From contig CP136065.1 in the NCBI GenBank assembly GCA_032622095.1, positions 240,601,530 to 240,665,529 of the forward strand: a DNA stretch of 64,000 nucleotides, written 5' to 3'. Of the stretch, positions 22,479 through 54,090 are shown piece by piece (the first letter of the stretch is position 1; each line of letters begins with the position of its first letter). The notes beneath the pieces are model-generated. The model did no database searches. It saw nothing but the letters and a program-made list of their open reading frames with translations, and had not been told where the DNA came from. This stretch comes from Siphonodentalium dalli. Lineage: Eukaryota > Mollusca > Scaphopoda > Gadilida > Siphonodentaliidae. A program made the translations under genes and the position numbers.

Positions 22479-22546
22479 CACACAATGAGTACTGTTATGT
22501 TACTGCTATATGAAAAGTAACATTTTGTAGTTTTAATTTAATTGCA

Positions 22547-30600: not shown

Positions 30601-33600
30601 AGGCTGTTGAAGCTTTATTTGGCCGGTTTTGGCCGGTTTGTTGGGTAAAGGGTTAACTTCTATGATTTATACACAAAGTTTCTAACGACTGACCAAGAGA
30701 TCTAGACCTCTCGTTATGTGAGTAAAGGGGGGATGCCCTATAGCAGAAGAGTCCACAATTAGAGGTACCATGTCTTACCCACCGGAAGCTGACATAAGCT
30801 AATGATAGGTAGAGCACTCTGCTGTATAGGCAGTTTCTGATATAGTCATAAAGAGTGGCCTTCTATATTTACACCGTGACTGCTACTATAGTCTACTCCC
30901 CTGTTCATCATGATCATGGCACATTATCTTATACCGGTTTGATGTTATACTGTGTATTAAATTTTAGCTATATCTTACATATGTGTATTATACTCCCAAG
31001 AAAGGACTATGTGCAACGTGATCTTTCACCTCATGACGTTGCTGCCATGGCGACGTACGGTATCAACAAAAACTCTCGCCTCGAAATTGTGTCACATCTA
31101 CTTTAGCGTTTCGGATGGTTTAAACAAATAAATTAATGCATACAAGTGGAATAAAATAGTAATGTAGCTACATATTCGATGAAAATTGATTACATGTCCA
31201 TAATAGGACTAAATTTTAGCTTTCACTATTCTGTTCCCGTCATTTTGGAAACGGGCCCACTCGCCCCAGGGCCCACTCACCCCAGTCGACCTGGGCCAGC
31301 TCGCCCCGGGCCAGCTCGTCCCGGGCCAGCTCGCCCCAAGGGATAATGTCTTATTTAAGTTGGTTTTCTTTTGGTTAATTATAGATTGTTTAATTTAATG
31401 TTTGTCACTGAATGTTGTTGAATATCATTAAATATACATGTTGAATTAAATATACACACCTTCGAGATCATTATTTGTCCGCAAGTTATGCCGAAAGATA
31501 CTCCATTCCTCGATCGAAAATGTGCTAGAGTCGAGCCACTGCCGTTGAACAGAGTCGCAGAGGCTGCGAAGACTGGACCCTTCGTCGGTTTTCTGGCTCA
31601 ATGCATCGAAGGTTATCTGCCGAACAAAGTCTGTAAGCGGCCCTCCCGCTCGGTAAGATGTCTGAAGTCGCCCACCTTCCTCAGAACAGCCTGGGACCAG
31701 TGGAAACAGCAACCTTTGATGGCAACTCCTGGGACAACCTCGCGAATTGACTGCCACAGCGCTGTTTCGAAGTCGAGCACTGCAGGATGGTCTAATCTGG
31801 TCATGACTTCTTTGAACACCTTCACGTAGTCGGAACGTGTCCGTCTTGACATAAAGACGAACACCAATGGAAACTGTTTCCTTTTTCCATCCTTCTGGAC
31901 AAACGCATGGATGGACAGAAGTTGACTCGATCTCATGCTGAAAGGGGCTCCAAGAATCTGAAATGATAATAGTTTCAAAGAATAAATAAATAAAAATAAA
32001 AAATTTGAATTAAATTTTTTTTTTAAATTTGAATAAAATGTTTAATGAATTAAAATAATTTTGTTTTTAATTTGTAACAAATCTTTCCACGAAATCTTTA
32101 TACATTTTATAATATAAATTGAGGATGGTGGTGGGTCATCATTGTTATTTATGAATTCGCTGGTTCGTCGTTCAGACCAACTAGTGTGATATAGGATCAT
32201 ATAGGCCTACTGGCTATTAACTTGCCTAAAGTAATATAAATGTCGAAATTGATGAACATAACTCTGAAATATATCATAATATGAACTTAAAAAATTAATA
32301 TATCAATATGAATTAACTTATTTACAACTTTAATACAAATGTAATACCCGGGCCGACTCGCCCCGGAAAACTGCCTGGGGCGAGCTGGCCCTGGGGCGAG
32401 TGGGCCCGGATCCGTCATTTTAGACAGCTTGCACCGCACAAAATTTGCAAAATGTACGATGTACACTTTTCTCAGAACTTGCATGGTTATTTTCAATCTA
32501 GCGAATTCTGAACTATTAACAGTTTGTTTGTTTGAGAACATTGATATTTTATTGAAAGAATTTCACAATTCTAATTTTTGGAGCATGGTACATGTAGCCC
32601 GTTCATTTGTATATTTCTTGCAGAACAAGGAAAAATGTTCTTCATTTTCTAATACTGAACATATTCTTTTATCTATACCGGTATCATTTTTTGGACATTT
32701 GTATCTATCCATCTCAATAGCTAATTTATGTGCAGTTATTCGCATCACACTTAAAGGTACGGTTGGCCTTGGCGGTGGGTATCCTGCGAAAATATTTCCA
32801 CCCGTCAAAAACCGCCACAAACAGAAAGAACATCAAAATGTAGACAGACTTTGTCCGTATACAAAAAAGAAATATCGCATAAACAGTATGTTATTGTCAA
32901 ATGTTTGACCATTGTTATGTAAACAAAAGCATAAAAAGTTACTTTTCTGGTGTTTGTTTATATTATGATAGTAAACATAAAGAGCGTTCTTTGTTGGTGA
33001 ATTCCTGATATGGAACTAATAAAGAGCGTTTATGCCATTTGTGTGTGATTAGCCAGTAGCATTGTGCTGTCTTCTGTAACACAATCAGGCTCTTGCTTAG
33101 GTAAAATATAGTAGGTCTTTGTGATAACATGCTGTTTACGTGATGATCATGGTATATATGAACGACACTGTATGCGTTTTAATGTTTTTCTGTTTACGGT
33201 GATTAGAACAAATATGAATATTTTCGACAACTAAGGCCTCACGTGCCTTTAAATGTCTCGTTAATTTTGGTAAACCTACTATTACTAGTACTAACACTGA
33301 AGGGGTCATTGTTGCCATATTTGGTGTGTTTGGTACCCAGCTTTGTGAAAATGTGAACCAGGTACTTAGCTTGAACTTTTTCAGCACATACATGTATTGG
33401 ATACAACTATTCTTGTAACCAATCTCATGGGAGATGGGGTAGTAAATTAGTAATCTTTAAATTTGTCATTTCTGCCTCCTGCGACATAACATTAAGAAAG
33501 GTGATAATATCTATAACGTAAACCCACAAAGGTCAAGCTGGGTTGGTTATTCAAAAGACCAATTCCAAAAGTTGGGTACCCAACACACCAATATGCTCGA

Positions 33601-36600
33601 CAATGACTACTTGAGCCTTACTAACTTTTAAACTGAAAGCCATTATAGAATAACGTACATGAATTTTTTTTTAGTTTCAGTTATAGCGTTGACTAGTCAT
33701 CTCTGTGAAGTAACTTTATTGAGTCATATTGACCAGTATGTGAATAACAGAAAAGCAGAGAATTTCTCTTTTCTTTAATTTTCAGTTGGGATTATGTACA
33801 CCCTCAATTAGACTTGACTATTGGAGGTAACAAAAATATAGAAGATAAGGGTAGGGTTGGATTGGAATTTTACCCTGTGCCAATGCATTCTCTTATATAT
33901 GCGAGTCGACCATAGGTCGCCTCGCATATATAAGAGTATGCATTGGCCTAACAATTTTTTACAATTTTAATAATTTTTTCTTGTATTCTTTAACAATTTT
34001 ATAATTTCACCCATACAGAGCCCCAGACAAACATGAGCAGACGACACTCTTCTATATGCTTCTATATATGTGTGGGGCTCCCTGCAGGGTAATGGATGTT
34101 TTTTTATTTTATGTCCTAAAAATTGTAAGAAACATTTATTTAAAAAAAATGATAAAAAATTGTTAGGCCAATGCATTCTCTTATATATGCGAGGCGACCT
34201 ATGGTTGACTCGCATATATAAGAGAATACATTGGCACAGGGTAACAAAAATATAGAAGATAAGAGCTACATTTCCAATTGGTGTCTGTCTAATCTATGTG
34301 AAATTCTCCAACATAAATTTGCCCCTGAAATTTTCTCCTTCTATGCAATGAAATCTGGAAATACATGTATAATTTGTAGACCAAGTAAAGTTAACAGATA
34401 AACAAAAAGCAAGAATAGAGAGAAATCGACAGAAAGCATTGTTACTGAGGCAATCCAGACTTGCGGAAGCTTCTCTTCATGCTATCAGAGGCAGGTAGGT
34501 GCTCAATTCTGGGTTTTCTTATGATCATGCTGTCCAACCAATTTGCGACCTCTCAGTGGTTTGCTGCATGCCTCTCAGTGCAATTTGGATTTTTTGACGA
34601 TAATCAATAACATCAATAGGTCCATACATTTGCTGAGTGGGTCATTGTCACCACATTTTGGTGTGTTGGGTAACCAGCTTTACGAAAAGATGTTTTGGGT
34701 ACTCAGCTTGACCTTTGTTGTGTTTTCGTGCCGATAAAAAGCAAATATGAGACAGGATTGCCAGGAATAATAGTCATTAAAACTGTTATTCTTGCCTCGT
34801 ATTTGCTTTTTATTGGCGACGTAATGCTAAGAAAGGTGATGATTTCAATAACACAAAGGTCAAAGGTGGGTACCCGATGCACCAAACTGTGGCAACAATG
34901 ACCCCTTCAGCCATACAATTTGCAAATAAAAATATCATGGGAAGCAATATACTGATTATATACCATTACTGAATATACTATTATTATCAGAAAATACACT
35001 TCAAATACACTGGTCTGTTTTGAGATATGCATGCTGGAAAATGAAGGAGAAGTCACTTCTCCCCAGGCAAAAATATGTAGAAGTGACACATTTTAGGGAG
35101 ATTCGAGAAGATACTAGTATTACCCATGTCTCACTCCAGTTTTATGTCATGCATATGTATTGAAGTGTTCTTGTTAAAAATTGAAATGTTTTTCTTCCAG
35201 TGGCAATTGTGAGGTGAAACAGAGTGTGGCCATTGATTCCGGTGCTGGGTTTTTCATTGACGATGAAGATGAGATAAAAAGAAAAATTCCTAAAAAGGTA
35301 TCGCATGAACCAGGTGTGTTACTAATTTTCTCTATTAAATTATTGAAGCAGTCACAGATGTGAATGATGCGTGTAGTGTGATGCCAGAAAAATAAAATTA
35401 TTAGAGTTTTTTTTATGGCAGCCTTCTTTATTCAGATTGTTCGGCTTCAGCAATCACTGTGGCAACCCTTTATCATGGCCCAGTTTGCTTCAGCATATGG
35501 CATCGGCATTGCTGATTGCCGCCGTAGCAAATTATTAGGGCTGTTATGGTGTGCAGTGAAAGCTTTCCATGCATTGCATTTTTGCAAAGTGTTAAAAATT
35601 CTGCATTGTGTGTGGTACCTTTACACAACAGTCTCCGGTTTTCACAACGAATACGATGATACTCACTGTTATTTACATGTATTTATTTTGTTTGTATCAA
35701 CTTTATTTAAGATTGAAAAGATTGATCTTGACGATTTTGACACCATATTGTGGTTTGAGTTGTATTGGCCTGTGATAGTGCAATTGTCAACAATATGCTA
35801 CACCATTGAAAGGAATTATTAATCAACAATATGATACACCATTGGAGGGAATTATTAATACAATATGGTACACCATTGGAGGGAATTATTAATACAATAT
35901 GCACTATATGATACAGCATTGGAGGGAATTATTAACTTTCATCTGTTTCGACCTAGTTTTGGCCTTTTTAGCTCAACTTACTTTTGTAAGTTTGAGCTAT
36001 TGCCATGGTTTGGCGTCCGTGTGTCTGTGTGTCCGTGTGTCCGTCAACAATTTCCTTTGGCGCGGGCTACAGGTCGTACCTTTGGTCTGATCTTTATGAA
36101 ATTTGTCATGAATGTTGACATTGACATGTAGATGGGAACGAGTCATTTTGGGGTCATACGGCCAAAAAACATGGCCGCTGGCAGCCATCTTGGATTTCAA
36201 GATTCAATCCATTGGCGCGGGCTACAGGTCGTACTGTTCGTCTGATCATCATGAAATTTGTCATGGATGTTAATAATGACATGTAGATGGGAACGAGTGA
36301 TTTCGGGGTCGTTCGGCCAAAAAACATGGCTGCCAGCAGCCATCTTGGATTTTACTCTTTGCATGACTAAATCCTTTGGCGCGGGCTACAGGTCGTTGCG
36401 TTGGTCGGAAGTTTATGAAATTTGTCATGGATGTTAACATTGACATGTAGATGGGAACGAGTGATTTTGGAGTTGTTCGGCCAAAAAACATGGCCGCCAG
36501 CAGCCATCTTGGATTTTACTCTTTGCATGACTAAATCCTTTGGCGCGGGCTACAGGTTGTACCTTTGGTCTAATCTTTATGAAATTTGTCCTGAATGTTG

Positions 36601-39600
36601 ACATTGACATGTAGATGGGAACGAATCATTGTGGGGTCATTCGGCCAAAAAACATGGCTGCTGGCGGCCATCTTAGATTTCAAAATTCAATCCATTGGCG
36701 CGGGCTACAGGTCGTACTGTTCGTCTGATCATCATGAAATTTGTCATGGATGTTAATATTGACATGTAGATGGGAACGAGTCATTTTGGGGTCGTTCGGC
36801 CAAAAAACATGGCCGCCATCAGCCATCTTTGATTTTACTCTTTGCATGACTAAATCCTTTGGCGCGGGCTACAGGTCGTAGCTTTGATCGGAAGATCATG
36901 AAATTTGTCACGGATGTTAACAATGACATGTAGATGGGAACGAGTGATTTTGGGGTTGTTCGGCCAAAAAACATGGCTGCCAGCAGCCATCTTGGATTTT
37001 ACTCTTTGCATGACTAAATCCTTTGGCGCGGGCTACAGGTCGTTGCGTTGGTCGGAAGTTTATGAAATCTGTCATGGATGTTAACACTGACATGTAGATG
37101 GGAACGAGTGATTTCGGAGTCGTTCGGCCAAAAAACATGGCCGCCAGCAGCCATCTTGGATTTTACTCTTTACATGACTAAATCCTTTGGCGCGGGCTAC
37201 AGGTTGTACCTTTGGTCTAATCTTTATGAAATTTGTCATGAATGTTGACATGTAGATGGGAACGAATCATTGTGGGGTCATTCGGCCAAAAAACATGGCT
37301 GCTGGTGGCCATCTTAGATTTCAAAATTCAATCCATTGGCGCGGGCTACAGGTCGTACTGTTCGTCTGATCATCAAATTTGTCATGGATGTTAATATTGA
37401 CATGTAGATGGGAACGAGTCATTTTTTGGGGTCGTTCGGCCAAAAAATCTTGCCGGCAGCAGCCATCTTTGATTTTACTCTTTGCATGACTAAATCCTTT
37501 GGCGCGGGCTACAGGTCGTAGATTTTATCTGAAGATCATGAAATTTGTCATGGATGTTAACAATGACATGTAGATGGGAACGAGTCATTTTGGGGATCGT
37601 TCGGCTGAAAAACATGGCTGCCAGCAGCCATCTTGGATTTTACTCTTTGCATGACTAAATCCTTTGGCGCGGGCTACAGGTCGTACCTTGGTCTAATCTT
37701 TATGAAATTTGTCATGAATGTTAATATTGACATGTAGATGGGAACGAGTCATTTTTTGGGGTCGTTCGGCCAAAAAACATGGCCGCCAGCAGCCATCTTC
37801 GATTTTACTCTTTGCATGACTAAATCCTTTGGCGCGGGCTACAGGTCGTAGCTTTTATCGGAAGATCATGAAATTTGTCATGGATGTTAACAATGACATG
37901 TAGATGGGAACGAGTCATTTTGGGGTCGTTCGTCCGAAAAACATGGCCGCCAGCAGCCATCTTGGATTTTACTCTTTGCATGACTAAATCCTTTGGTGCT
38001 GGCTACAGGTCGTACCTTGGTCTAATCTTTATGAAATTTGTCATGAATGTTGACATTGACATGTAGATGGGAACGAGTCATTTTGGGGTCATTCGGCCAA
38101 AAAACATGGCCGCTGGCAGCCATCTTGGATTTCAAGATTCAATCCATTGGTGCGGTCTACAGGTCGTACTGTTCGTCTGATCATCATGAAATTTGTCATG
38201 GATGTTAATAATGACATATAGATGGGAATGAGTGATTTTGGGGTCGTTCGGCCAAAAAACATGGCTGCCAGAAGCCATCTTGGATTTTACTCTTTGCATG
38301 ACTAAATCCTTTGGATCGGGCTACAGGTCGTTGCGTTAGTCGGAAGTTTATGAATTTGTCATGGATGTTAACACTGACATGTAGATGGGAACGAGTGATT
38401 TTGGAGTCGTTCGGCCAAAAAACATGGCCGCCAGCAGCCATCTTGGATTTTACTCTTTGCATGACTACATCCTTTGGCGCGGGCTACAGGTTGTACCTTG
38501 GTCTAATCTTTATGAAATTTGTCATGGATGTTAATAATGACATGTAGATGGGAACGAGTGATTTTGGGGTCGTTCGGCCAAAAAACATGGCCGCCAGTAG
38601 CTATCTTGGATTTTACTCTTTGCATGACTAAATCCTTTGGTGCGGGCTACAGGTCGTAGCTTTGGTCAGATGGTCATGAAATTTGTCATGGATGATAACA
38701 ATGACATGTAGATGGGAACGAGTCGTTTTGGGGTCATTCTGTCCAAAAACATGGCCACCAGCAGCCATCTTGGATTTTACTCTTTGCATGACTAAATCCT
38801 TTCGCGCGGGCCATTTTGGATTTCAAAATTCAATCCATTGGCGCGGTCTACAGGTCGTACTGTTCGTCTGATCATCATGAAGTTTGTAGGTCGTAGCTTT
38901 GGTCAGATCTTCATAAAATTTGTCATGGATGTTAACAATGACAAGTAGATGGGAACGAGTCCTTTTGGGGTCAATTGGCCAAAAAACATGGCCGCCAGCA
39001 GCCATCTTGTATTTTACTCTTTGCATCACTAAATCCTTTGGCGCAGGTTAGACATTTCAATTAGCACCTTTCCTATTCCTCCATTTACTGTCAACCATTA
39101 AATTATTCCCCTACCTAAGTTGAGCTACAGTGTCATTGACACTTTCATTAAGAATCATAATGGTTTATTGACAGAAGCACAGTGTTGTATATGTTGAAAT
39201 CAGTAGCATTATATAACGGAGATTATCAGCATGGTATGTAATAAGTTAAGGTGTACATTTTTTGGTGATTTGGTGTATCAAAATTCAATGTTTCCCGAGA
39301 AAATATATTGTAGTACTTCTGTATGGGTTGGAGTGGTCAGGAGAGCTGTCTTCCCGCCAATCCCATGTAGATGATATTTACAATTTATATTCCTCATGGG
39401 GTTGTATTCTACTACGTGTAATATTTCACCATCATAGCAATGAGAGCTAGCCAAAGCAGGTTTTTGTTTGACTCCCTGTAAAGGTCAACCAGAGAATTCA
39501 TTTCTACAAAAAATACTCGCAAGTGAGAATTAGGGCTGATTTTATCATCAGGGATGTTAATACCACCAAAAAAGGCCACACAGGCTTGGTTGAAATTTGT

Positions 39601-42600
39601 TTAGCATTTTGTAGCCCTGGGTAGATTTTGTATAACATTCCCTACCAATACATGTTTTTTCATTGAAAATTGGTTAGCAGAAATTGGAAATTGCTTCGCA
39701 AATTGCAATGCAAATCCAGTTAAATCGAGCCATGGTACCTCTTGTTGATAATTCAAGGAATTTATTTCTTTTCTCTCAATAGCACCAGTTCTAGATCGAG
39801 ACGACTTATTACTATGTGCCGATTGCAGAAAAGAATTCATGGATTCCTACCTCTGCACTAAGTTTGACTTGGCTGTCTGTGATACATGCAGGTTTGTTGG
39901 ATACATTTCAGTTTTAACAGAATACTGTGCGCCCCATCCATGCAGCAGTCCTGGCACATTATGATTACATCAGATTCTAACCAGCAATGCACTGAAATCG
40001 CATGGAGTTATATCAGTCAGCTAGGACAGTTGTACCTAACAGGGTGGTGTGATTATCAGGGTTCGCGCTGCCACTTGCCAAATTTGCCAATGGCAAAAAT
40101 AATAATGGCAAAACATATTTTCATTTGGCAAAAGTTTTGGCAAGTCACTTTTTAATTCCTTCAACAATTTGAAAAAATATTGGTCAATCATTACCATTCA
40201 TTTCAGAAAACTCTTAGAACATAATTATATTAGTGGTGTTTTATAAGGTTTAGGGAAAGTTAACACCTCTATTGAGATGCAGTTAATCTCATAGCATTAG
40301 AACTGATGGTTGGAGGGATTACTAATCCTCCTGTGATGTGCCCTTCTGATGAATTGTATTGTTCGGTGATTGGCTTTTTGTTTTATGATAAACCGCAATA
40401 GCAATGCGAGCATAATTAAGTATTAACTAACTGCTTTGCTATCGATAACAAAGGCTGTTCAACCCGCGTGTGTCGAAACCTAATAATTAAGGTTGCAGAA
40501 AATGATACTTTCAGGGATAGAATTTGGCAAAAGCTAATATAATTTGGCAATAAATATTTTTATTTGGCAAAAGTAAATTTCTGTCCAGCGTGGACCATTG
40601 TGATTATGCGATGTTGGTTCCCATATGATAAATATCAATTTAGGGGATATAGAATCTGAACAGTAAATATTACTAAAACTGTGTTAATTTGAGACAATAG
40701 ATACTTCCCAGAAGATGAGGCCAATGCAGAATGAGTTCCCCAGAGTATGGATTTGGTGATGCTAGCCTGCTATGTGGGATAGCATCATTAAATTCACCCT
40801 CTGGGGACCTCACTCTGCAAATGACAGACACACTATTTCCAGGCTTGATCAATAACCAAGAATTCATAGCTATGAGACGTTCCACGGGAAAGTCTACTGA
40901 AGCTCGTCATCTTGTCAGTCTCGAATGGCCCTTTACCCAACAGAAGGGCCCTGTGCCAATGCATTCTCTTATATATGCGAGTCGACCATAGGTCGCCTCG
41001 CATATATAAGAATGCATTGGCCTAAAAAAAATCTTTTTTTACCATTTTTTCTTACATTCTTTAACAATTTTATAATTTTTAATGTGTTAAGCCAATGCAT
41101 TCTCTTATATATATGCGAGGCGACCTATGGTCGACTCGCATATATAAGAGAATGCATTGGCACAGGGCCTTTCAGTAGTCCCTTTCTGTACTAAATTGAT
41201 TCTCCCAGTTAGTTAAAAAGTGTGCATCGGAATGATCTATTATTGAATTGGAGGATTGTTATGGTGATTAAAGTAGATGACAGATAAAGTGCAGAAGGAG
41301 CCCTATTTATTGAGGGAAATGTTTAGATAATAAGTTCATAACTTATTTTCTTAACATTTCCTATGGGATAACAGCTCATCAATGATGATTTAGCATAGAA
41401 AGAGATATACTATTATCTGAAGATTTCCTATGGGATAACAACTCATCAATGATGCTTTAGCATAGAAAGAGTTAAACTTATTATCTGAACATTTCCCATG
41501 GGATAACAACTCATCAATGATGGTTTAGTATAGAAAGAGTTATACGTATTATCTGAACATTTCCTATGGGATAACAACTCATCAATGATGCTTTAGCATA
41601 GAAAGAGTTAAACTTATTATCTGAAAATTTCCTATGGGATAACAACTCATCAATGATGGTTTAGTATAGAAAGAGTTATACGTATTATCTGAACATTTCC
41701 TATGGGATAACAACTCATCAATGATGCTTTAGCATAGAAAGAGTTAAACTTATTATCTGAACATTTCCTGTGGGATAACAACTCATCAATGATGCTTTAG
41801 TATAGAAAGAGTTAAACTTATTATCTGAACATTTCCTATGGGATAACAACTCATCAATGATGCTTTAGTATAGAAAGAGTTAAACTTATTATCTGAACAT
41901 TTCCTGTGGGATAACAACTCCTCAATGATGCTTTATTATAGAAAGGGTCCCTGTATGAATTATATAATGGGATTTGAATGACACCTGTCAAATATTCCAG
42001 GAAGGAGAACGAAGACAAATATTCTTTGATAACAAGAACAGAAGCAAAGACTAGATTCCTCTTACAAGATGTAGACTTTGATAAGAGGGATCCATGTTTG
42101 AAATTCGTGCTTAAAAAGAATCCACTTAATCCACGCTGGGGTGATATGAAACTCTATCTCGAATCTCAGGTGAGCATAATCCACGCTGGGGCGATATGAA
42201 ACTCTATCTCGAATCTCAGGTGAGTATAATCCACGCTGGGGCGATATGAAACTCTATCTCGAATCTCAGGTGAGCATAATCCACGCTGGGGCGATATGAA
42301 ACTCTATCTCGAATCTCAGGTGAGTATAATCCACGCTGGGGCGATATGAAACTCTATCTCGAATCTCAGGTGAGCATAATCCACGCTGGGGCGATATGAA
42401 ACTCTATCTCCAATCTCAGGTGAGTATAATCCACGCTGGGGCGATATGAAACTCTATCTCGAATCTCAGGTGAGTATAATCCACGCTGGGGCGATATGAA
42501 ACTCTATCTCGAATCTCAGGTGAGCATAATCCACGCTGGGGCGATATGAAACTCTATCTCGAATCTCAGGTGAGCATAATCCACGCTGGGGTGATATGAA

Positions 42601-45600
42601 ACTCTATCTCGAATCTCAGGTGAGCATAATCCACGCTGGGGCGATATGAAACTCTATCTCGAATCTCAGGTGAGCATAATCCATGCTGGGGTGATATGAA
42701 ACTCTATCTCGAATCTCAGGTGAGCATAATCCACGCTGGGGCGATATGAAACTCTATCTCGAATATCAGGTGAGCATAAACCACGCTGGGGTGATATGAA
42801 ACTCTATCTCGAATCTCAGGTGAGCATAATCCACGCTGGGGCGATATGAAACTCTATCTCGAATCTCAGGTGAGCATAATCCACGCTGGGGCGATATGAA
42901 ACTCTATCTCGAATCTCAGGTGAGCATAATCCACGCTGGGGCGATATGAAACTCTTATCTCGAATCTCAGGTGAGTATAATCCACGCTGGGGCGATATGA
43001 AACTCTATCTCGAATCTCAGGTGAGCGTAATCCACGCTGGGGCGATATGAAACTCTATCTCGAATCTCAGGTGAGTATAATCCATGCTGGGGCGATATGA
43101 AACTCTATCTCGAATCTCAGGTGAGCATAATCCACGCTGGGGCGATATGAAACTCTATCTCGAATCTCAGGTGAGCATAATCCATGCTGGGGTAATATGA
43201 AACTCTATCTCGAATCTCAGGTGAGCATAAACCACGCTGGGGCGATATGAAACTCTATCTCGAATCTCAGGTGAGCATAATCCACGCTGGGGCAATATGA
43301 CACTCTATCTCGAATCTCAGGTGAGCAGGCTAAGGGCTCAGGACACATAATCCACGCTGAGGCGATATGAAACTCTATCTCGAATCTCAGGTGAGCATAA
43401 TCCACGCTGGGGCAATATGACACTCTATCTCGAATCTCAGGTGAGCAGGCTAAGGGCTCAGGACACATAATCCACGCTGGGGTGATATGAAACTCTATCT
43501 CGAATCTCAGGTGAGCATAATCCACGCTGGGGCAACATGACACTCTATCTCGAATCTCAGGTGAGCAGGCTAAGGGCTCAGGACACATAATCCACGCTGG
43601 GGCGATATGAAACTCTATCTCGAATCTCAGGTGAGCATAAACCACGCTGGGGCGATATGAAACTCTATCTCGAATCTCAGGTGAGCATAAACCACGCTGG
43701 GGCGATATGAAACTCTATCTCGAATCTCAGGTGAGCATAAACCACGCTGGGGCGATATGAAACTCTATCTCGAATCTCAGGTGAGCAGGCAGTCTCTTTG
43801 AAAAGCCTATGATAATCATTACGGATGTACGTCTCTAGGTGTGTTCATTATATTTCACATCTACACTGACGCGGCATTCCCAACATAATAAACCATTTCC
43901 AAATATGGAGTGCATTTCTGGCGAAGTAAATGTTTGTGAGAATCGTAGTATTTAGAAATATTTACAAATACAACATAATGTGAAAGAATAATTAGTCGCG
44001 AATATCATTGACTGATAACAACTTGAAGATGATATCTCTTATATTACGAGTAAAATTAATTATGGATATATCGCCAATATTCAGTTTTCCAACAATATTT
44101 GAGTTCGACAATGCGTGGGAAACTTGTCAACACGTCATTGACCTCTGTTCTGTGAAGCGATCTGTTATGCCATAAACCAATGAAATCATGTGCGTGCTTC
44201 GTCACTCTCCAATGAAATGGAGGAAATCTTATCAATTCAGTAACTGATTATGAATGAGATATCCAGAGATGTAAATATTGTAAAATTTTCGTCAGGCTTT
44301 TTAAAGAGACTGGTGAGCAGGCTAAGGAAACTACATCGTAATTTGCTAAACCCATTCATGACAGGAGTTGCGCTGGTGCAACATTAAAGATGCTGTGCCA
44401 GTGCATTCTCTTATATATGAGGGTCTCCCATTGGGATACTCGCATATTTAAGAGAATGCACTGGCTTACGAGGTCGTAAATATCATTATTATGGGAAACT
44501 TGCATATGTAAGTGGATACATTGGCACAGTGTTTTCACAAAATTTTAGGAAGCGCCAGTCATGGAAGTGTTAAACTTGGCAGCAACACACAGTTTCAACC
44601 TATGTTTGTTCTATATTTTCAAAAAAATATCATTAAGATGTTAATAGACCGATAGCATAATTCATCTCGAATGCTGGATATCAAAGAGATTTGTTTTTTG
44701 GCGTTTAAATTTCACAACCTCGAAAAATGAAGACCGAAGCCGCTTGAACACTATCTTCTCAACATATGTATACGGGGTGAGGAGCTAGAAGAAATTGATA
44801 CATAGATCATTTGCTATTGGTTGAGTTATTTATATATAGGTGAAGAATATACTCACTTTTTATTAATTTTTTGGTAGGAAATGTTCTGGCAGTTTGTTGA
44901 ACTTATTGTATGAACACTACCCAAGGGAACTACTTGTCAATGAGTATTTAATAAAGAAAGTGTTATAATATATAAAATATAAATATGTTGGTCAATGTAC
45001 ATCTAATAAGTATAAGTTTCTAATATCCATTATTATGTTAATTATTCATAGTTTGTATGAATATCAGAAGTAAACCAGTCATTGAAGTACAGTCTTTGTC
45101 ACTATGAACTAATTTATTTTCTGGTTGACTGTTGACACTTTTCCAGCAAGATCTTCTTGGACTTAGGTAAACAATTGTGTTTTTGTGTTTGGCAGGTAAA
45201 AGAAAGAGCATTAGTGGTTTGGGATAATGAAGAGAGAATAGAAGAAGAAAAAGATGTAAGACAAGAAAAGAAAGACAAAGCCAAGACAAAAAAGTTTGAC
45301 AAGAAAGTAAAAGGTACGCAGGTTCAGAATATGTGTAAACAAATCTGAGAATATAAGGTGCCAGACATTTGCAGAATGAGGTCCGCAGAGGGTGAATTTA
45401 GTTATGCTACCCTGTACAGTGGGCTAGCATCACCAAATTCACTCTCTGGGACCTCATTCTGCGTAGGCCTCATCTTCTCTGGAAACTATCTTTATTATCA
45501 AATTAGGTTCCCAATGGGTGGACATCACAATATTCACCATCTGTGAACATAAATCTGAGTGAGTCTAGGTCTCCTATAGCAGATGAGGCCATGCACAATG

Positions 45601-47606
45601 AGGTCTCCAGATGATGAATTTGGTGATGCTAACACGCTGCATGTGCTGGATAGCTTCACTGAATTCACCCTCTAGGGACCTCATTCTTCACCTTATTATC
45701 AGGCCTGCTTGTAAACATGCTCTCAAAACGAGTTTCATAGAATTTATGTTTTTCTAGTTGATTCTTCGCTTTTCCGATCTACAATCATTGTTTGGTATTG
45801 ATTTTTATATAAATGAAATCTGAAATTCTCATTACGTCATGCGAAGAATTCAGGATCGCCCACGAGTAAACTGTCAGCAAGGGTGGCGCATCAAAGATGG
45901 CTTGGTTGAGTTTTTGTGCCTATAAGAGTGCATCTGTCTGACCGAGAATCACTAAAAATGGACAAACTATTAACAGAACCATAACTCAGAACTAAGGGCC
46001 ATAACTCAGGTAAAAAGATGGCTGCCAGTGGCCATGTTTTTCTTCGAAAATCATTCATATTTGATAGCTCCCATCTACAGGTAATCCTAAACAGGCCTAT
46101 AAAGTTTCAAAAGAATTCTCCAATAAATGTGGCGCTGCAGGGTGTGCTGATGGATTCATATTTGAAATCCCAAGATGGCTGCTGTTGGCCATTTTTTTTT
46201 TATTAAAACATTTCGGAAAAAAGGCAGGCTCTCCTCTAGAGGTCACCCCGAAGATCCATATGAAATTTGGTGACCGTTTGATGAGAAATGTGACATGTGA
46301 CGTGTGCTAAAGGATTTAGTGATACAAAGAGTAAAATCAAAAATGGCCGCTGGCAGACATGTTTTTCATTGAAAATCATTAAAATCCAATAGGTCCCATT
46401 TAGAGGTGATCCTAAGCAAGCCTGTAAAGTTTCAAAACAATTCTCGAATAAATGTGGTGTGTAGGGTGTGCCAAAGGATTTAGTGATGCAAAGAGTAAAA
46501 TCCAAAGATGTCTGCTGGCTGCCATGTTTTTCATCGAAAATCGTTAAAATTTGACAGCTCCAATCCAGAACTGTTCCTAGATTCATATTCGAATATCGCT
46601 GAAATTGGTCAAAGTTTGTATGAGTTAGCGAACGATCAAAATCACTAAAAATAGACAAACTAAGGCCCATAACTCTTGTATAAAAGATTGGACAAACCTG
46701 GTTTTTGAACTCGAGCTAGATATTGTTGCAAAATATCAATTAAAATGGTTGACATTTGTTTGAGTTATCGTGCTAACGGTCTATCGCTCATCTGGACACC
46801 CACCCAAATTTCCCACCTACTGACCACGCCAAAGCATAAGTCAGTTTTTGAAAAAAACTTGACAAAAAATTACCACATAGGTTGTTACTAAAAATACATT
46901 GAATGGAATCAACACACTTAAAGATGGATTACAGTAATGCTCTAATTAATCGACTCCTTAAACACAGCAGAATTATGGGTAACTTTTCAGGATTTAGTCG
47001 GAAATATGGCTTGTTGCCATTCATCGGAAAGCTCTCGGGGAGAGCTTTCCGATGAATGGCAACAAGCCATATTTTCGACTAAATCCTGAAAAGTTACCCA
47101 TAATTCTGCTGTGTTTAAGGAGTCGATTAATTAGATCATTACTGTATCTCTTCATATAACAAATCTGAAATAGTTTCATGGGTATAAAATAATAAATATG
47201 AATGGAAGACACTATCCGGAAATGCTTCTAGAAATTAATATTGATTTTATTTCCAATATTTTCTTATAAAATGCGATGGTCAAAAAGGACATATTATTGC
47301 TACTATTTTTAGAACAGACAATTCAGGCGATATCAGATAGCAATGGAGCTCATTAAAATGCTATATTATATTCTGATTGAAATGATCAGTGTTTAAAAAA
47401 AAAATTAATTCATTAATCATACTATTACATAATAAAGAATCTTACATATTCCAGAGCTACGGTTATCTGTTAGAAGCAGCCTGTTGAAGATAGACAAAGG
47501 TAGCCATGAACATGTATTCGGAGACGAGACATACGATGAAGAAGACGATGAGTTTCATAAAACATGCAAAGAGTGTGGATTCGTTTCATCTTATGAGAAA
47601 ATGTGA
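27630..47606 (+). CDS. XPA: XPA, DNA damage-binding scaffold of nucleotide excision repair (7 coding exons)
   Basis: Nuclear scaffold protein that verifies damage and positions RPA, TFIIH and ERCC1-XPF in nucleotide excision repair. Exons: 27630-27675, 34380-34494, 35201-35313, 39783-39891, 42001-42169, 45196-45313, 47455-47606. All introns are GT-AG and all phases agree. The sum is 822 nt, 273 residues, the length I recall for human XPA. Residues 28-41 are the basic RNRQKALLLRQSRL (NLS/RPA region). Residues 68-74 are GAGFFID, the ERCC1-binding motif, with A for the middle glycine of the usual GGG. C103, C106, C124 and C127 form the C-x2-C-x17-C-x2-C zinc finger. WGDMKLYL (174-181) and KFDKKVK lie in the DNA-binding core. 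C261-x2-C264 is in the TFIIH-binding tail, ending YEKM. The N-terminal part is split over one more exon than I recall for vertebrates. No lesion was found, so it is probably functional. No clear AATAAA was seen close after the stop. Confidence 0.96.
28395..28532. repeat. Imperfect inverted repeat
   Basis: About 45-bp arms around CCTCGGCTC, with CACTAAATTC / GAATTTAGTG and TTATCAAC / GTTGATAA pairing, ending in CTATTTTATAC / GTATAAAATAG. Stem-loop inside the long-TIR element. Confidence 0.6.
28911..29404 (+). mobile_element. TTAA-flanked MITE (family C), copy 1
   Basis: 486 bp (28915-29400) between TTAA (28911-28914, 29401-29404). Ends are AGGCACGGGAGGCCTTAG and, inverted, AGGTGTGGGAGTCCTTG. 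Nested in the long-TIR element. It matches 32751-33252 in inverse orientation over its length. piggyBac- or Kolobok-like by target site (inference). Confidence 0.8.
30197..30667 (-). pseudogene. 5S rRNA-derived pseudogene split by a MITE
   Basis: On the minus strand, 30197-30260 plus 30657-30667 align without gaps to the 3' two-thirds of animal 5S rRNA. CAGCACC, GGTCACCCATC, TAACC and GCTTAACTTC on the + strand are the complements of conserved 5S words. Several differences are C-to-T type. The 5' part is lost or unrecognisable after TGAT. It could be the 5S-derived head of a SINE instead of a gene copy. Confidence 0.65.
30257..30656. mobile_element. TTAA nested-hairpin MITE (family A), copy 2
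   Basis: 392 bp (30261-30652) between TTAA repeats, same TIRs as 213-592 and reversed in orientation. Both internal hairpins are complete (about 30288-30355, 30434-30503). Removing it with one TTAA restores 5S-like GCTTAACTTC, which independently confirms the target duplication. Confidence 0.88.
30670..31238. other. No gene recognised (XPA intron 1)
   Basis: No coding match. A TAGGTAGAGCAC word near 30806 resembles a tRNA A box, but no tRNA fold was found. Confidence 0.3.
31247..32413 (-). mobile_element. Deleted MULE with 8-bp target duplication
   Basis: 1167 bp flanked by GTCATTTT (31239-31246 and 32414-32421). Ends are GGAAACGGGCCCACTCGCCC and, inverted, GGATCCGGGCCCACTCGCCC, with several nearby CCAGCTCGCCCC subterminal repeats. 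One minus-strand exon (about 31960 to 31457) encodes a MULE transposase core: LLSIHAFVQKDGKRKQFPL, VFVFMSRRTRSDY, LDFETALWQSI, GCCFHWSQAVLRK, then, after a frameshift near 31650, WSIFRHNLRTNNDLEG. Acceptor ATTTCAG and donor GTGTGT bound it. FLYWCH-type and other exons are missing. Inactive. Confidence 0.85.
32751..33252 (-). mobile_element. TTAA-flanked MITE (family C), copy 2
   Basis: 494 bp (32755-33248) between TTAA (32751-32754, 33249-33252), inverse to 28911-29404. Both lie in XPA intron 1, 3.8 kb apart, and could form an intronic RNA duplex of about 480 bp. Confidence 0.8.
33297..33616. mobile_element. MITE (family D), copy 1
   Basis: TIR CTGAAGGGGTCATTGTTGCC at the left and a diverged inverse at the right. 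TACTAAC lies outside both ends (33288-33294 and near 33620), a possible target duplication. In XPA intron 1. Confidence 0.55.
33826..34263. mobile_element. Family A MITE variant between 24-bp direct repeats
   Basis: Hairpins at 33880-33946 and 34167-34234 as in family A. The spacer between them is enlarged to ~220 bp and holds GAGCCCC...GGGGCTC. The tips are ACCCTGTGCC / GGCACAGGGT without the CCCTTTACCC ends. An exact 24-bp direct repeat (GGTAACAAAAATATAGAAG plus five bases) lies at 33826-33849 and 34240-34263. Confidence 0.75.
34380..34494 (+). CDS. XPA: XPA exon 2
   Basis: Acceptor TTTGTAG, donor GTAGGT. Encodes QVKLTDKQKARIERNRQKA and LLLRQSRLAEA, matching the conserved IERKRQRALMLRQARL region of XPA that carries the nuclear localisation signal and an RPA32 contact. 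Confidence 0.92.
34632..34911. mobile_element. MITE (family D), copy 2
   Basis: In XPA intron 2. TIRs GCTGAGTGGGTCATTGTCAC and the inverse of GCTGAAGGGGTCATTGTTGC. The flanks CATACATTT and CATACAATT agree at 8 of 9 positions, a probable target duplication. Confidence 0.65.
35201..35313 (+). CDS. XPA: XPA exon 3 (ERCC1-binding motif)
   Basis: Acceptor TTTTTCTTCCAG, donor GTGTGT. Encodes IDSGAGFFIDDEDE, the glycine plus acidic motif that contacts ERCC1, and KKVSHEP leading to the zinc finger. The second glycine of the usual triplet is alanine. Confidence 0.95.
35790..35935. repeat. ~34-bp minisatellite
   Basis: Four copies of CACCATTGGAGGGAATTATT-type units in XPA intron 3, with slight length changes. 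Confidence 0.8.
35966..39151 (+). mobile_element. Helentron-like element with ~163-bp tandem array (XPA intron 3)
   Basis: About nineteen tandem units of ~160-165 bp, marked by GATGGGAACGAGT and CTTTGGCGCGGGCTACAGG. The array starts after TAGCTCAACTTAC (35970) and ends before TAAGTTGAGCTA (39116-39127). An AGTGTCATTGACACT stem-loop (39129-39143) and TTTCATTA follow. Subterminal inverted repeats, a central tandem array and a terminal hairpin are the known plan of Helentron-associated elements such as DINE-1 and bivalve pearl elements; assignment here is by architecture only. No Rep/helicase. Open frames in the array are by-products. Confidence 0.65.
39152..39782. other. No element recognised (end of XPA intron 3)
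   Basis: Ordinary AT-rich intron sequence leading to the exon 4 acceptor. Confidence 0.4.
39783..39891 (+). CDS. XPA: XPA exon 4 (zinc finger)
   Basis: Acceptor TTCTCTCAATAG, donor GTTTGT (weak). Encodes LCADCRKEFMDSYL and FDLAVCDTC, the C4 zinc finger. Confidence 0.97.
40057..40599. mobile_element. hAT-type MITE (CAGGGTTCGCGCT family), copy in XPA intron 4
   Basis: 543 bp between 8-bp GTGATTAT (40049-40056, 40600-40607). The left end is CAGGGTTCGCGCTGCC. The right end is degenerate, CCAGCGTGGACCATT. ATTTGGCAAAA repeats cluster at both ends. Family member at 50152-50728. Confidence 0.85.
40690..40850. mobile_element. Palindromic MITE (family E), copy 1
   Basis: Hairpin core 40727-40818: CAGAATGAG... 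pairs with ...CTCACTCTG, and GGTGATGCTA pairs with TAGCATCATT around a short loop. Flanks GATGAGGCC and ACACACTATTTCCAGGCTTG recur with other copies. Confidence 0.65.
40925..41168. mobile_element. TTAA-type nested-hairpin MITE (family A), copy 3, damaged ends
   Basis: GGCCCTTTACCCAACAGAAGG starts it. Hairpins are at 40956-41020 (2 bp lost) and 41092-41161 (2 bp gained). The right TIR is missing after CACAGGGCC. In XPA intron 4. Confidence 0.8.
41265..41946 (+). repeat. 68-bp minisatellite grown from a TTAA MITE (XPA intron 4)
   Basis: About nine units of 68 bp, GGGATAAC spaced at 41365, 41432, 41500, 41568 and so on to about 41908, ending 55 bp before exon 5. The preceding GACAGATAAAGTGCAGAAGG to GTTTAGATAATAAG matches (inverse) the interior of the TTAA MITE at 62009-62251, so the array probably began inside such an element. 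Confidence 0.88.
42001..42169 (+). CDS. XPA: XPA exon 5 (DNA-binding core), 3' end amplified downstream
   Basis: Acceptor AATATTCCAG, donor GTGAGC. Encodes SLITRTEAKTRFLLQDVDF, RDPCLKFVLKKNP and WGDMKLYLESQ. The last 39 bp and the first 11 bp of the intron form the unit of the minisatellite that follows. Confidence 0.97.
42131..43791 (+). repeat. 50-bp minisatellite of the XPA exon 5 / intron 5 junction, ~32 units
   Basis: Unit is 39 bp of exon end (from CCACGCTGGGG to GAATCTCAG) plus 11 bp of intron (GTGAGCATAAT). The first unit is the functional junction itself. About 31 more follow, nearly identical, each with donor CAG|GTGAGC or CAG|GTGAGT. Three units carry a 20-bp insert (AGGCTAAGGGCTCAGGACAC) after the donor, giving 70-bp units at 43320, 43440 and 43560. 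A related GTGAGCAGGCTAAGG lies at 44311. Because 50 is not a multiple of three, read-through past the first donor gives VSIIHAGAI and then TGA. Confidence 0.97.
43792..44344. other. No element recognised (XPA intron 5)
   Basis: Unique-looking intron sequence. Only a GTGAGCAGGCTAAGG echo of the minisatellite at 44311-44325 is notable. Confidence 0.4.
44345..44571. mobile_element. TTAA-type hairpin MITE (family G), in XPA intron 5
   Basis: Diverged relative of family A. The left tip CCCATTCATGACAGGAGTTG pairs with CCAGTCATGGAAGTG at the right, where TTAA remains at 44568-44571. The hairpin built on GTGCATTCTCTTATATATG and GTCTCCCATTGGGAT is at 44398-44465. Confidence 0.65.
44572..45195. other. 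No gene; fragment of family F MITE (XPA intron 5)
   Basis: AT-rich. The stretch 44875-44965 resembles the TTAA MITE at 62009-62251 (GGAAATGTTC..., GAACTTATTG...). Confidence 0.4.
45196..45313 (+). CDS. XPA: XPA exon 6
   Basis: Acceptor GTGTTTGGCAG, donor GTACGC. Encodes a charged helix, VKERALVVWDNEERIEEE, then KKFDKKVK, conserved at the end of the DNA-binding domain. Confidence 0.97.
45365..45720. mobile_element. Two family E palindromic MITE copies (XPA intron 6)
   Basis: Copy at 45371-45462 (GCAGAATGAGGTC / GACCTCATTCTGC nearly perfect, with GGGCTAGCATCACC in the stem) and a more diverged copy at 45590-45693. Confidence 0.65.
45880..46660 (-). repeat. Old copies of the ~163-bp repeat (XPA intron 6)
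   Basis: Diverged, inverted relatives of the intron 3 array. AAAGGATTTAGTGAT followed by AAAGAGTAAAATC near 46309 and 46474 (165 bp apart), and AGATGGCTGC near 46017 and 46173. Confidence 0.6.
46932..47144. mobile_element. Tc1/mariner-like long-hairpin MITE, copy 1 (XPA intron 6)
   Basis: A 213-bp near-perfect hairpin starting CAGTAATGCTCTAA and ending with a slightly altered inverse, flanked by TA. Arms of ~104 bp meet at CTCTCGGGGAGAG. TA target plus CAGT ends suggests Tc1/mariner mobilisation (inference). Confidence 0.75.
47455..47606 (+). CDS. XPA: XPA exon 7 (TFIIH-binding tail)
   Basis: Acceptor CTTACATATTCCAG, TGA at 47604-47606. Encodes SVRSSLLKIDKGSHEHVFG, then DDEFHKTCKECGFVSSYEKM, the family C-terminus with its CxxC pair. 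Confidence 0.97.
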
Positions 47607-47696: not shown

Positions 47697-48512
47697 AGGG
47701 TTGCCAATAGGTACTGGTACCGGTGTAACACGATATCTCCCCCCTGGGTATCTTCCCGGTACCGGAACTGGCGGTAATCAGGAATTAAATCGGTACCGGT
47801 TCTGATGTCTAGTACCGACGGTTCTCGGTACTGATTGTTGATTTCTATTAATATTCCTCTTACCGAATATAAAGGGTTAATTAAGCAGCTCAACATAATG
47901 CCAAACTCAACTGTGATGGGTCAGCACATTCAAACATCAAAGGCACAGTATGCCGCACTATGACAAATTAATTGTCACGAAATTCTAGTCCAAATTTTCA
48001 AACTAGCCAACTACAACTAGCCTTACTGGAAACGACTTTGGTTTCATTGGGTGACATCATTTATGAAATTACAAATTTACAACATTCGAGTAATATGGCC
48101 GATTAGTGAATTCTCTAATTAATTACCACACAAATAATATGGTGTACCGTGACACCGTCACTACCGTGTATCCATAAAAGCCTACAATGTTAGCCGGCCC
48201 AGTAGTCAAACATACATGTCTACATTCGTTCCACTCTGTATTCCGTCTTTTAAAAAATCATCCCTTTGCCACTTGCCGATAACCGCCGCAGACAACAACT
48301 TAATCGTAAATGTCGTTGCGATTTTTATTTTCGTTGTTTGACTAAACCTCGAACTTAACGAATAATTGATGATGGAACCCCACGAAACCAAAGTTATTTG
48401 CAGTATAAAAGTCCACTCAATGATTACTGATACCGACCCGGTTTGCGGTAATGAACATCAGTACGGAACTGGTACCGAAAGTTGTGGTACCGTCAGTACT
48501 TTGGCAACCCTG
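47697..48512. mobile_element. hAT-type element just downstream of XPA
   Basis: 816 bp. Ends (C)AGGGTTGCCAA and TTGGCAACCCTG, with GGTACCG-rich subterminal repeats on both sides. TTTGCAGC duplicated at 47689-47696 and 48513-48520. No transposase. The left breakpoint of the tandem duplication (48008) cuts it, so only its right part recurs at 54452-54956. Confidence 0.82.
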
Positions 48513-48774
48513 TTTGCAGCTTGCATCGCAGGCTGACTCAGGGAGTTCCAGGCAACTCCGGCTTGTTCCGACCAATAGAAATCCATGCTCGTTCTGCAGA
48601 GAGATATCTCGAGGAGTATGTTTGTTTGTGACAATATTCCGTACAGGAGTATGTTTGTGCAGTGATTATATGGCATTGTGTGGAACACTCGCTGAAGTAC
48701 CAGGTATTTAAATGGGAACAGGGATTAATCTGGCTCAAAGTAGTTTTTCCTCATAACTGTTATATCCAGATTGG

Positions 48775-48906
48775 CAGCACACAGCATCATTCTTATATAT
48801 GGATTATATGCAGTGACTCCCAATGGGAGACTCACATATATAAGAGAATGCACTGGCACAGAATCTTTAATGCTGCACAAATGCAGCTCCAGTCATGAAA
48901 GGGTTA
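48775..48906. mobile_element. Family G MITE fragment (copy 1)
   Basis: Hairpin CAGTGACTCCCAATGGGAG with the CTTATATATG/CATATATAAG arm, ending in CATGAAAGGGTTAA. The left half is incomplete. Duplicate at 55219-55350. Confidence 0.6.
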
Positions 48907-50151
48907 ATTGGAATTTGCGGCAATATTAGTTGATTGCCACATTCTTCGAGTTGGTGTAGTGCATGGGTACTTATTCTTCAGGTTGAGATGCCAAGAGGTT
49001 TGCTTACTCAATAATCAACTATTATATTTGAATATATTAACTACATTGTTATGATGTTATGATGGCAACACTGTAATTCGATTGACTGTTGTACATAAAA
49101 TTTCTAGTCACATTAGACATATGCCACCATGCATGGTCTATTTCTGTACAATAGTAACCAAAATGAGCCTCACAAGAAGTTTTCAATCATACTGGCATGC
49201 TCAATGGCTCATAACCATATATGCATTCCTGTTTTATTCACTCACTTTCAGTGCACTTATGCATTCAAAAGACAATTCTTGTTATAAGAAAGCTTAGGTT
49301 GTTTAGTATTGGCATATATCTAATTTATATGTTATTGAGTACATACACCATTTATTTAAAAATCCATTCTTTGTAATATTCATGTTTATTTTTATAACAA
49401 ACTAATAAAACAATAAGAGATCATTCAACATGCTTGTATACTATTACCCAAGATACTCTGGTTGGGTTATTTTGCATACATTTACATGTAATAACACTTT
49501 CTTTACAAAATGGATTCACCTATCAAGTATGAAAGTATATATTTGGAGGGGTGTTCAGAATATATGAGCAGGCGACAGACAGACAGAAGAACTGATACTG
49601 ACCTAGGTAAATGACTCGGCGAACCGGGGTGCCACCACATTTCGGTTTGACTTTAAACATGGATATAAACTGCAAGACAACCAGAGGATTGTGTGGTTAA
49701 AACGCATGTAATCATCAACTGGTATGAAACAGTAACTTCCAGTACAATTGCGGCTCCAACAAATTTATATATGTCACAGAAATGAAACAATCAGCAGTTA
49801 GCTACAGTGTATCGGCAGTCAAGGAATATAACCAGGGTTCGCATTTAATCGCAGTGCCACAGAACCGTTAATTGTTGTGTAGATTTGGTTTGACCGCAGT
49901 TATAAAGGCATAATAACCCCAGTTACTGTGTCAATTACTTAGAAAAGTACATTACAAAGAGTCCTCTTCATTAGTAGGAAATGTTCAGATAATAAGTTCA
50001 ATTCATATTTGGTAAAGAAAGTGTTAAAATAACTTAGTTGGAAATTTTGAACATTGAATAAAAATGACTAATGAATATAGGGCTGATATTGGAGCCTGTA
50101 TCGAGCGACCTTAATTGTTGTATCGGTGTCGATGCTGACTTTACACACCTT
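48907..50151. other. No gene recognised (duplication copy 1)
   Basis: AT-rich. A fragment near 49970-50030 resembles the family F MITE (GGAAATGTTCAGATAATAAG). CAGGGTTCGCATTTAATCG at 49833 resembles one hAT MITE end without a partner. Duplicate at 55351-56595. Confidence 0.4.
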
Positions 50152-50728
50152 CAGGGTTCGCGCTACCATTTGCAAATGCCAAAAATAATTCACATTTGGC
50201 AAAAAATATTTTCAATTGGCAAAAAATTTGGCAAGACAATTTTTATTCCTCAAGAAAGTTTAATAATAATTGTCAATCAATACCAATCATTTCAGGAAAC
50301 TATTTCATTGATAGTGTTATTGTTGGTGATTTATAAGGTTATGAACAGTTAACACCTCTATCAAGATGCAATTAATCTGATATCATTAGTATCGATGGGT
50401 GGAGGGATTACTATTATGTCTGGTGGTGGCATTTACATAGCTAATCCTGTTTCGATGTGCCTTCTGATGAAGAAACCCTTCTACAATTTTATTGTTATGC
50501 TGTTGGTTTATTGTTCTAGTATGATACACCCAAGTATAGAGGCGATAATTATTAATAATGAACTGCTTTCCTATCGATATCAAAGGTCGCTCAAGCAGCG
50601 ATTGTCTTAATAATCAAAATAAAAGACACAATGTTGTAGAAACTGCTAGCATTTGGCAACTTCTAACAGCATTTGGCAAAAATTATTTTCATTTGGCAAA
50701 AGTAAATTTCGGGCCAGCGCGGACCCTG
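50152..50728. mobile_element. hAT-type MITE (CAGGGTTCGCGCT family), complete
   Basis: 577 bp between CACACCTT repeats (50144-50151, 50729-50736). Ends CAGGGTTCGCGCTACC and GGCCAGCGCGGACCCTG. ATTTGGCAAAA clusters inside both ends. The second duplication copy (from 56596) has lost the right end. Confidence 0.9.
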
Positions 50729-50962
50729 CACACCTTTGCATGCCTGGATAAGCGGATTGCTGTTTACCTCAGAAATACTTCGTGTGCGAAGCATTGTTGA
50801 TTGGTGAACCATCTGACATTTCATTTATTATCGTATTGAGCGATGAAAAGCAAAATCGGACCATAAAATTTGACTATAATGTAATCTCGTGCTGGTCCCT
50901 TCACCTACTGTAAAATACATTATTATGGAACGGTAATAAATAAGAGAATGCATCGAAATGTA

Positions 50963-51201
50963 TTAACGCTTTCATGGTGGGAGCTGCATTGGTGCAGCAT
51001 TAACAATCCTGCGCCAGTGCATATGCGAGGGAGCCTCACATATATCAGAGAATACACTGACTTACACAAGGTCCAGGTAAAATATTGTTAGACCAATGCA
51101 TTCTCTTATATATTCGAGTCTCTCTACTCGCATATATTAGAGAATACATTGGCACAGGGTTTTCCCAAAATTTCAGGAAGCTTCAGTCATGGAAGGGTTA
51201 A
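50963..51201. mobile_element. TTAA-flanked hairpin MITE (family G), copy with both ends
   Basis: 231 bp (50967-51197) between TTAA. Tips CGCTTTCATGGTGGGAGCTG and the inverse of CTTCAGTCATGGAAGGG. Two hairpins as in family A but decayed. Duplicate at 57316-57554. Confidence 0.8.
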
Positions 51202-51689
51202 AAAAGAAATATATTACCTATATTTTTGTTTTTATGTTCCACAGTCAGAACTTCAACAAGTTCCCCGGTATTGTATACTGGTGGAATATGATCTTGGTAT
51301 GAGATCAATTGACTGAGACAGGGACAAGATGAGACATCATTTATTTATTCATACTACTTTATTCTTGAAAATATGTATATAGCTAACATGAGAATCAACA
51401 AAATCTCAACATTCTTAAATAGCGACGAGACAACATTTATTCTTATCAGAGATCTTATAATTGAAAGAGCATGTATCACCCTGAACTGACAGGCAGCCCG
51501 CTACTATGATGCAAAGTTCTCCCAATTATTTATACCCCAAAGTCAGGTACTTGATTTTAGTGCTGAAATTGATGGTACGTTGCTGACGATGATACCAACG
51601 GAACTGATGATGATACCAGTGAAATTTAAAATATTTTACCACCTAGTAACAACTTATAACTTACAATTGTACACCTCCATACTCATGTA
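51202..51689. other. No gene recognised
   Basis: AT-rich, nothing identified. Duplicate at 57555-58042. Confidence 0.35.
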
Positions 51690-51903
51690 CAGTAATGCTC
51701 TAAGTAATCGACCCCTTAACCACAGCAGAATTATGGGTAACTTTTCAGGATTTAGTCGGAAATATGGCTTGTTGCCATTCATCGGAAAGCACTTGGGGAG
51801 AGCTTTCCGATGAATGGCAACAAGCCATATTTCCGACTAAATCCTGAAAAATTACCCATAATTCTGATGTGGTTAAGGGGTCGATTACTTGGGAGCATTA
51901 CTG
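51690..51903. mobile_element. Tc1/mariner-like long-hairpin MITE, copy 2
   Basis: A 214-bp hairpin, CAGTAATGCTCTAAGTAATC to its inverse, TA on both sides, loop CACTTGGGGAG. Duplicate at 58043-58256. Confidence 0.78.
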
Positions 51904-53882: not shown

Positions 53883-54090
53883 ATCTTTGATGATGGGAGT
53901 TGCGCTGATGCAGTATTAAAGATCCTGTGTCAGTGCATTCTCTTATATATATAAGACATTGCACTGGCTTACAAGGTCAAGGTAAATATTGTTAGGCAAT
54001 TGTATTCTCTTACAAATGTGAGGCTGCCTATGTGAGACTCGCATATATAAGAGAATACATTGGCATTGGTTAGTTATATTCATGGAAGGG
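53883..54090. mobile_element. Family G MITE, decayed
   Basis: Preceded by TTAA (53879-53882), followed by ATAA. Hairpin remnants CATTCTCTTATATATATAAG and CTCGCATATATAAGAGAATAC. Duplicate at about 60233-60440. Confidence 0.6.

Follow-up and report, generated by a model that had tools for sequence, protein, structure and literature searches.

We have characterised a minisatellite that was founded on an exon–intron boundary of an XPA gene and that repeats this boundary, splice donor included, in 32 phased copies. The gene around the array is intact, and the explanation that we favour, and regard as reasonably probable, is that XPA carries the array mostly passively and makes its working mRNA from the first donor. 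The stretch analysed, hereafter the window, comprises 64,000 nt (64 kb) in total.

Six coding exons of XPA were located on the plus strand between positions 34380 and 47606, with the reading frame open throughout.

34380–34494, plus strand: first XPA exon found, without an in-frame ATG (joined frame; phmmer match to XPA)
35201–35313, plus strand: second XPA exon found (joined frame)
39783–39891, plus strand: third XPA exon found, the zinc-finger exon (joined frame; Pfam XPA_N)
42001–42169, plus strand: fourth XPA exon found, whose 3' boundary is the founder of the array (Pfam XPA_C, 4.5e-22; joined frame)
45196–45313, plus strand: fifth XPA exon found, start CAG/GTAAAAG (joined frame)
47455–47606, plus strand: last XPA exon, which includes the stop (joined frame)

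Joined by splice phase, the six exons give one open frame of 257 residues, and the exons past the array stay in frame to its end, YEKM-stop. Residues 7–257 match the PDB entry ‘DNA repair protein complementing XP-A cells’ in a phmmer search (E 1.7e-75), which we take to be the human XPA protein, and Pfam assigns XPA_C (1.5e-21) and XPA_N (1.2e-9) domains to the joined protein. These two domains, together with similarity to a known XPA over nearly the full length, identify the gene as XPA. The lack of an in-frame ATG in the first exon found means that the model probably omits an exon further upstream, which makes the exon numbering uncertain. The initial annotation referred to the array-bearing boundary as that of exon 5, which would be correct if there is an extra upstream exon; in our model, however, the boundary follows the fourth exon found, and it presumably corresponds to the end of human exon 4. 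The intron that bears the array is 3026 nt long.

The sequence CAGGTGAG occurs 32 times on the plus strand, at 42167–43778, and nowhere else on either strand of the 64-kb window. The array of about 32 duplicated XPA donors that had first been reported is thus real, and its anatomy can be read directly from the DNA.

42127–43787, plus strand: array of 32 copies (43 exon nt and 7 intron nt each), copy 1 being the real boundary (TRF, site count and alignment)
43321–43347, plus strand: insert of the first 70-nt unit, a 12-nt filler preceded by 15 nt from the original intron (GTGAGCAGGCTAAGG)
43441–43467, plus strand: insert of the second 70-nt unit, with the same two parts
43561–43587, plus strand: insert of the third 70-nt unit, likewise with these two parts

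TRF reports a period of 50 with 24 copies at 42127–43327 (96% match) and more blocks up to 43790; with its 32 copies, the array is a tandem repeat whose unit lies in the 10–100-bp range. The 50-bp unit originally described holds for 27 of the 31 spacings, but three units measure 70 nt and one measures 51 nt. Alignment gives the consensus TAATCCACGCTGGGGCGATATGAAACTCTATCTCGAATCTCAG/GTGAGCA, in which 43 nt of exon end (TAATCC...CAG) are followed by 7 nt of intron start (GTGAGCA), and the array accordingly begins at 42127. The 39 + 11 split proposed earlier is incorrect because the four bases TAAT that it counts as intron sequence belong to the exon itself. CAG/GTGAG is kept in all 32 copies of the array, which lies at the end of an XPA exon. 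At donor position +6, 26 copies have C and six have T, so that every unit does carry CAG/GTGAGC or CAG/GTGAGT, as had been noted.

The units differ from each other at a mean of 1.79 of 50 positions. Eleven of the 50 columns are variable among the 32 units, a count that excludes the one-base insertion of copy 17 (trimmed for alignment) as well as the extra 20 nt in each of the 70-nt units. The pairwise difference is smallest at lag 2, with 1.20 versus 1.71–1.97 for the other seven lags that were tested, a pattern that block duplication would produce. Within the window, the 12-nt filler, GCTCAGGACACA, is found in the three 70-nt units only. RNA folding of the first three units revealed nothing unusual (z 0.19), Rfam at gathering thresholds gave no matches in the window, and the exact array pattern had no occurrence in viral contigs, in line with non-viral DNA.

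XPA lies in repeat-rich DNA that is prone to arrays, one of which happens to span a boundary. Two large arrays are situated in upstream XPA introns, one of 164-bp units at 36053–38811 (TRF) and one of 68-bp units at 41340–41945 that ends 55 nt before the array-founding exon, showing that tandem expansion in this region is not limited to the boundary. Another copy of the 68-bp unit lies at 62004–62066, and 20-nt matches to it lie at 49975–49994 and 56419–56438. As a separate observation, a fragment of a MULE transposase is present at 31613–31978, upstream of the array. The window also contains a near-perfect palindrome of 8.47 kb and a tandem duplication of ~6.4 kb at 99.75–99.93%, either of which is possibly an assembly fault, and the array or its copy number might accordingly be an assembly artefact as well. 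We consider this very unlikely, since the ordered pattern of 11 variable columns, one 51-nt unit and three 70-nt units would hardly be invented by collapse or stutter. Nevertheless, the exact copy number could be wrong in the assembly.

Directly behind the last copy lies an inverted-repeat element, which was observed with both of its flanks.

43781–43789, plus strand: left target-site duplication GTGAGCAGG, the same sequence that copy 32 has at its intron positions +1 to +9
43790–44312, no strand assigned: 523-bp inverted-repeat (MITE-like) element, TIR beginning CAGTCTCTTT, 18/19 matched
44313–44321, plus strand: right target-site duplication GTGAGCAGG, which runs on into CTAAGG, the original intron

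The element thus shows both hallmarks of its MITE-like kind, the TIR (18/19) and the 9-bp target-site duplication; a target duplication of 9 bp fits MULE transposition. A scan for 9-bp direct repeats around inverted ends of at least 16/19, 120–1500 bp apart, returned a single site in the window, whereas 10 single-base shuffles gave no hit. The 64-kb window holds no second copy of the 523-bp element. Since the left duplication represents positions +1 to +9 and the right one runs on as CTAAGG, the original start of the intron must have been GTGAGCAGGCTAAGG. Outside the three 70-nt units, this sequence occurs only once in the window, at 44313, directly behind the transposon.

From this arrangement we infer a probable order of events, the simplest one. 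The founder duplication would have been of the 70-nt form, combining 43 exon nt with some 15 intron nt and the 12-nt filler, and it would have been shortened to the 50-nt unit when 20 nt were lost. Expansion to 32 copies with higher-order blocks of 100–120 nt may then have come about by slippage or unequal exchange, and the short inverted-repeat transposon would have inserted last, at a point 9 nt inside the intron portion of copy 32. In the resulting gene, donor 1 would supply the working XPA mRNA, and leakage to later donors would yield an early-stop mRNA that is presumably degraded.

The coding outcome of each donor follows directly from the computed joins. Of the 32 donors, only donor 1 leaves the frame open. 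Its product is the full XPA protein, in agreement with the normal product that the initial annotation expected from this donor; at 169 nt, the resulting exon is also the shortest of the 32 choices. All 31 later donors lead to ...YLESQVSIIHAGAI followed by a stop; the recomputed joins thus reproduce the VSIIHAGAI-stop that had been read for any later donor. The usual rule for message decay is a stop more than about 50 nt before the last junction. Because the stop from the later donors is situated 138–1699 nt ahead of this junction, the nonsense-mediated decay that had been proposed for these messages is still predicted.

To describe donor strength, we used a simple U1 duplex score in kcal/mol. 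Copies 2, 4, 6, 7, 17 and 19 (GTGAGT) score -14.8 versus -11.1 kcal/mol for donor 1, since their position +6 is T. For the four remaining native donors, the scores are -12.9, -7.7, -7.5 and -5.6, which makes donor 1 the second strongest of the five. By the same score, the array donors occupy ranks 1 to 32 among the 135 GT sites at 42001–45200. Competition between the array copies and donor 1 for U1 is therefore plausible as far as predicted pairing goes. When 5' splice sites are duplicated, the intron-proximal site is often preferred; with six stronger copies in addition, it is unsafe to assume that the array is passive.

If the copies did compete with donor 1 for U1, the length of the array might set the share of early-stop message and thus the level of XPA; the initial annotation similarly suggested that copy number could tune DNA-repair capacity. 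The single early stop shared by all 31 later donors at 138–1699 nt before the last junction, the six copies that pair more strongly than donor 1 and the top ranks held by the array would be consistent with such tuning. We nonetheless regard it as unlikely, since heavy use of the later donors would be costly when only one donor in 32 preserves the frame, and since the donor core is without clear excess invariance over expectation. For 11 distinct variants, the chance of finding no variable column within the 8-nt donor core is P 0.11–0.15. Columns 25–34 (10 columns) are as invariant as columns 40–48, and at least one invariant run of 9 or more columns is expected with P = 0.80. When each run of a variant is taken as its own event (29 events), the P for neutrality drops to 0.006, but this is an overcount due to the block copying indicated by the lag-2 minimum. 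We therefore rejected selection on the donors as unsupported, given the P of 0.11 and the equally invariant 10-column stretch elsewhere in the unit. The invariance of the donor core is no good evidence of selection, although weak constraint is possible (P 0.006 by the other count).

Across the window, 34 of 3774 GT sites on the plus strand score at or below -11.1, and 32 of these lie inside the array; on the minus strand, 2 of 3394 reach this value. Such a concentration would suit an array that acts as a sink for U1, as the initial annotation suggested, or that uses U1 to protect the intron from premature polyadenylation. Both roles appear highly improbable. One locus with 32 sites is not expected to titrate an abundant snRNP, and the host intron is just 3026 nt long.

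The units could also act as acceptors. Each starts with GTGAG and ends with CTCAG or ATCAG, and all 496 of the 496 donor/acceptor pairs re-form CAG/GTGAG after removal of whole units, a result that follows from the repeat structure itself. In the 17 nt that precede the array CAG, the proportion of pyrimidines is 0.59–0.71 across the 32 copies, which falls inside the span seen at the six native acceptors (0.47–0.82), but the tract is broken by CGAA. A pyrimidine proportion of at least 0.65 is found at 31 of the 32 array sites versus 52 of 441 other YAG sites at ~30–48 kb, a comparison of pyrimidine content only from which the array's own 32 sites are excluded. These features would allow the array to be tolerated as a series of scarless GT...AG cassettes: putative stepwise removal or re-splicing, similar to that of zero-length recursive splice points or of an AG/GT-duplication intron, would restore the frame internally whichever donor were used first, the units would represent both recursive points and an intermediate of intron growth, and residual competition would tie XPA dose to copy number. 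Intron gain through AGGT tandem duplication is a known model (available text of PMC4974935). Additional splicing might correct harmful donor choices, in the manner of AGGT-duplication introns or recursive splicing; the cassette reading as a whole, however, seems to us quite improbable. We thus keep to a boundary-founded minisatellite that is mostly passively carried.

The XPA array is a naturally occurring construct that bears on the long-standing question of how a choice is made among many identical 5' splice sites. It offers 32 copies in near-identical exon context, six of which outscore the real donor, and direct splicing yields a working protein from the first donor only. In addition, the array illustrates how an intron can be lengthened from its donor side by a minisatellite, and the intron sequence that preceded the insertion has been preserved through the target duplication of the transposon.

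We found no published donor array in XPA in the available texts of a literature search that lay mostly outside subscription journals. Sparus myostatin-2, where 150-bp repeats lie in an intron at its 5' end, was considered as a precedent and rejected, as a donor array is not described in the part of that paper available to us (PMC3045353). Tandem duplication of AGGT segments as a source of introns is represented by the Rogers 1989 model, ATP2A1, 24-bp duplicates in fission yeast and potato RdRp; in the available sections of the same account, the model includes introns that span several duplicates, and one case of tandem duplication over an intron–exon boundary is known (PMC4974935). The XPA units likewise hold AG/GT (CAG/GTGAG in each) and thus provide paired GT and AG sites, but they are 32 copies of the donor boundary of an existing intron, and a new intron is only hypothetical. 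In recursive splice sites, or ratchet points, acceptor and donor are juxtaposed (accessible text of PMC8605326), just as an acceptor-like CAG stands next to a donor GTGAG in the XPA array. Unlike such sites, the array consists of 32 copies of exon-derived sequence without a long intron, and its use in this manner is hypothetical.

Minisatellites made of a copied exon–intron boundary are rare among repeats and have a known precedent in humans; the initial suggestion that they were undescribed does not hold. Turri, Cuin and Porter reported that a minisatellite provides multiple splice donors in a human transcript induced by interferon (IFI6, 6-16/G1P3; Turri 1995, NAR 23:1854), and two downstream repeat units of the minisatellite serve as donors according to the available text of a later paper (PMC4526556). 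Judged by anatomy, this is the nearest known case: in both genes, minisatellite units supply splice donors, which in the XPA array are predicted ones. The XPA array starts at a real exon–intron boundary and has a donor consensus in each unit, features that it reportedly shares, at least in part, with IFI6. The IFI6 array is said to have a 12-bp unit, to be located at the end of an exon and to give in-frame products, and its copy number reportedly differs between individuals. What sets XPA apart from IFI6 is a unit of 50 nt, longer than that reported for IFI6, of which 43 nt are real coding exon, a stop that is brought in by the later donors and a DNA-repair gene as the host.

The boundary exon, the fourth XPA exon found (42001–42169), whose 3′ end founded the splice-donor array, has a second tandem repeat on its other side. 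This 68-bp minisatellite (8.9 copies, 41340–41945) stops 55 nt upstream of the exon, which is thus sandwiched by two arrays. A further copy of the 68-bp unit, with 79% identity, is situated at 62004–62066.

Two other XPA introns carry repeats of their own. A satellite built of 164-bp units, which also shows higher-order periodicity at 319 and 483, occupies 36053–38811 and is found again, inverted, at the end of the window (63069–63998). The last intron contains an inverted repeat with head-to-head arms, spotted by eye (46930–47151), and relatives are located at 51688, 58041, 61289 and 61684.

Immediately downstream of XPA lies a tandem duplication of approximately 6.4 kb (48008–54400 and 54452–60750). 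With a query that ended at 54400, the aligned pieces are 99.75% (3622 nt) and 99.93% (2688 nt) identical; the duplication could be recent, or could represent two haplotypes assembled in series.

The window also contains a near-perfect palindrome with arms of 8.47 kb (5702–14176 and 14221–22694). Aligned against each other, the arms are 99.917% identical, with six mismatches and one gap across 8469 nt. The 44-nt spacer between them does not appear to match the PacBio hairpin adapter. The palindrome is either a young natural one or a fold-back assembly fault.

Pieces of a non-LTR retrotransposon (23567–25654, minus strand) and a MULE fragment were identified by domain matches:

Transposon remnants in the window
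23567–24622, minus strand, reverse transcriptase domain (non-LTR retrotransposon), domain match
25190–25654, minus strand, endonuclease-type domain (non-LTR retrotransposon), domain match
31613–31978, minus strand, MULE transposase domain fragment, E = 4e-7

The MULE fragment is possibly a relative of whatever mobilised the 523-bp inverted-repeat, MITE-like element behind the array.
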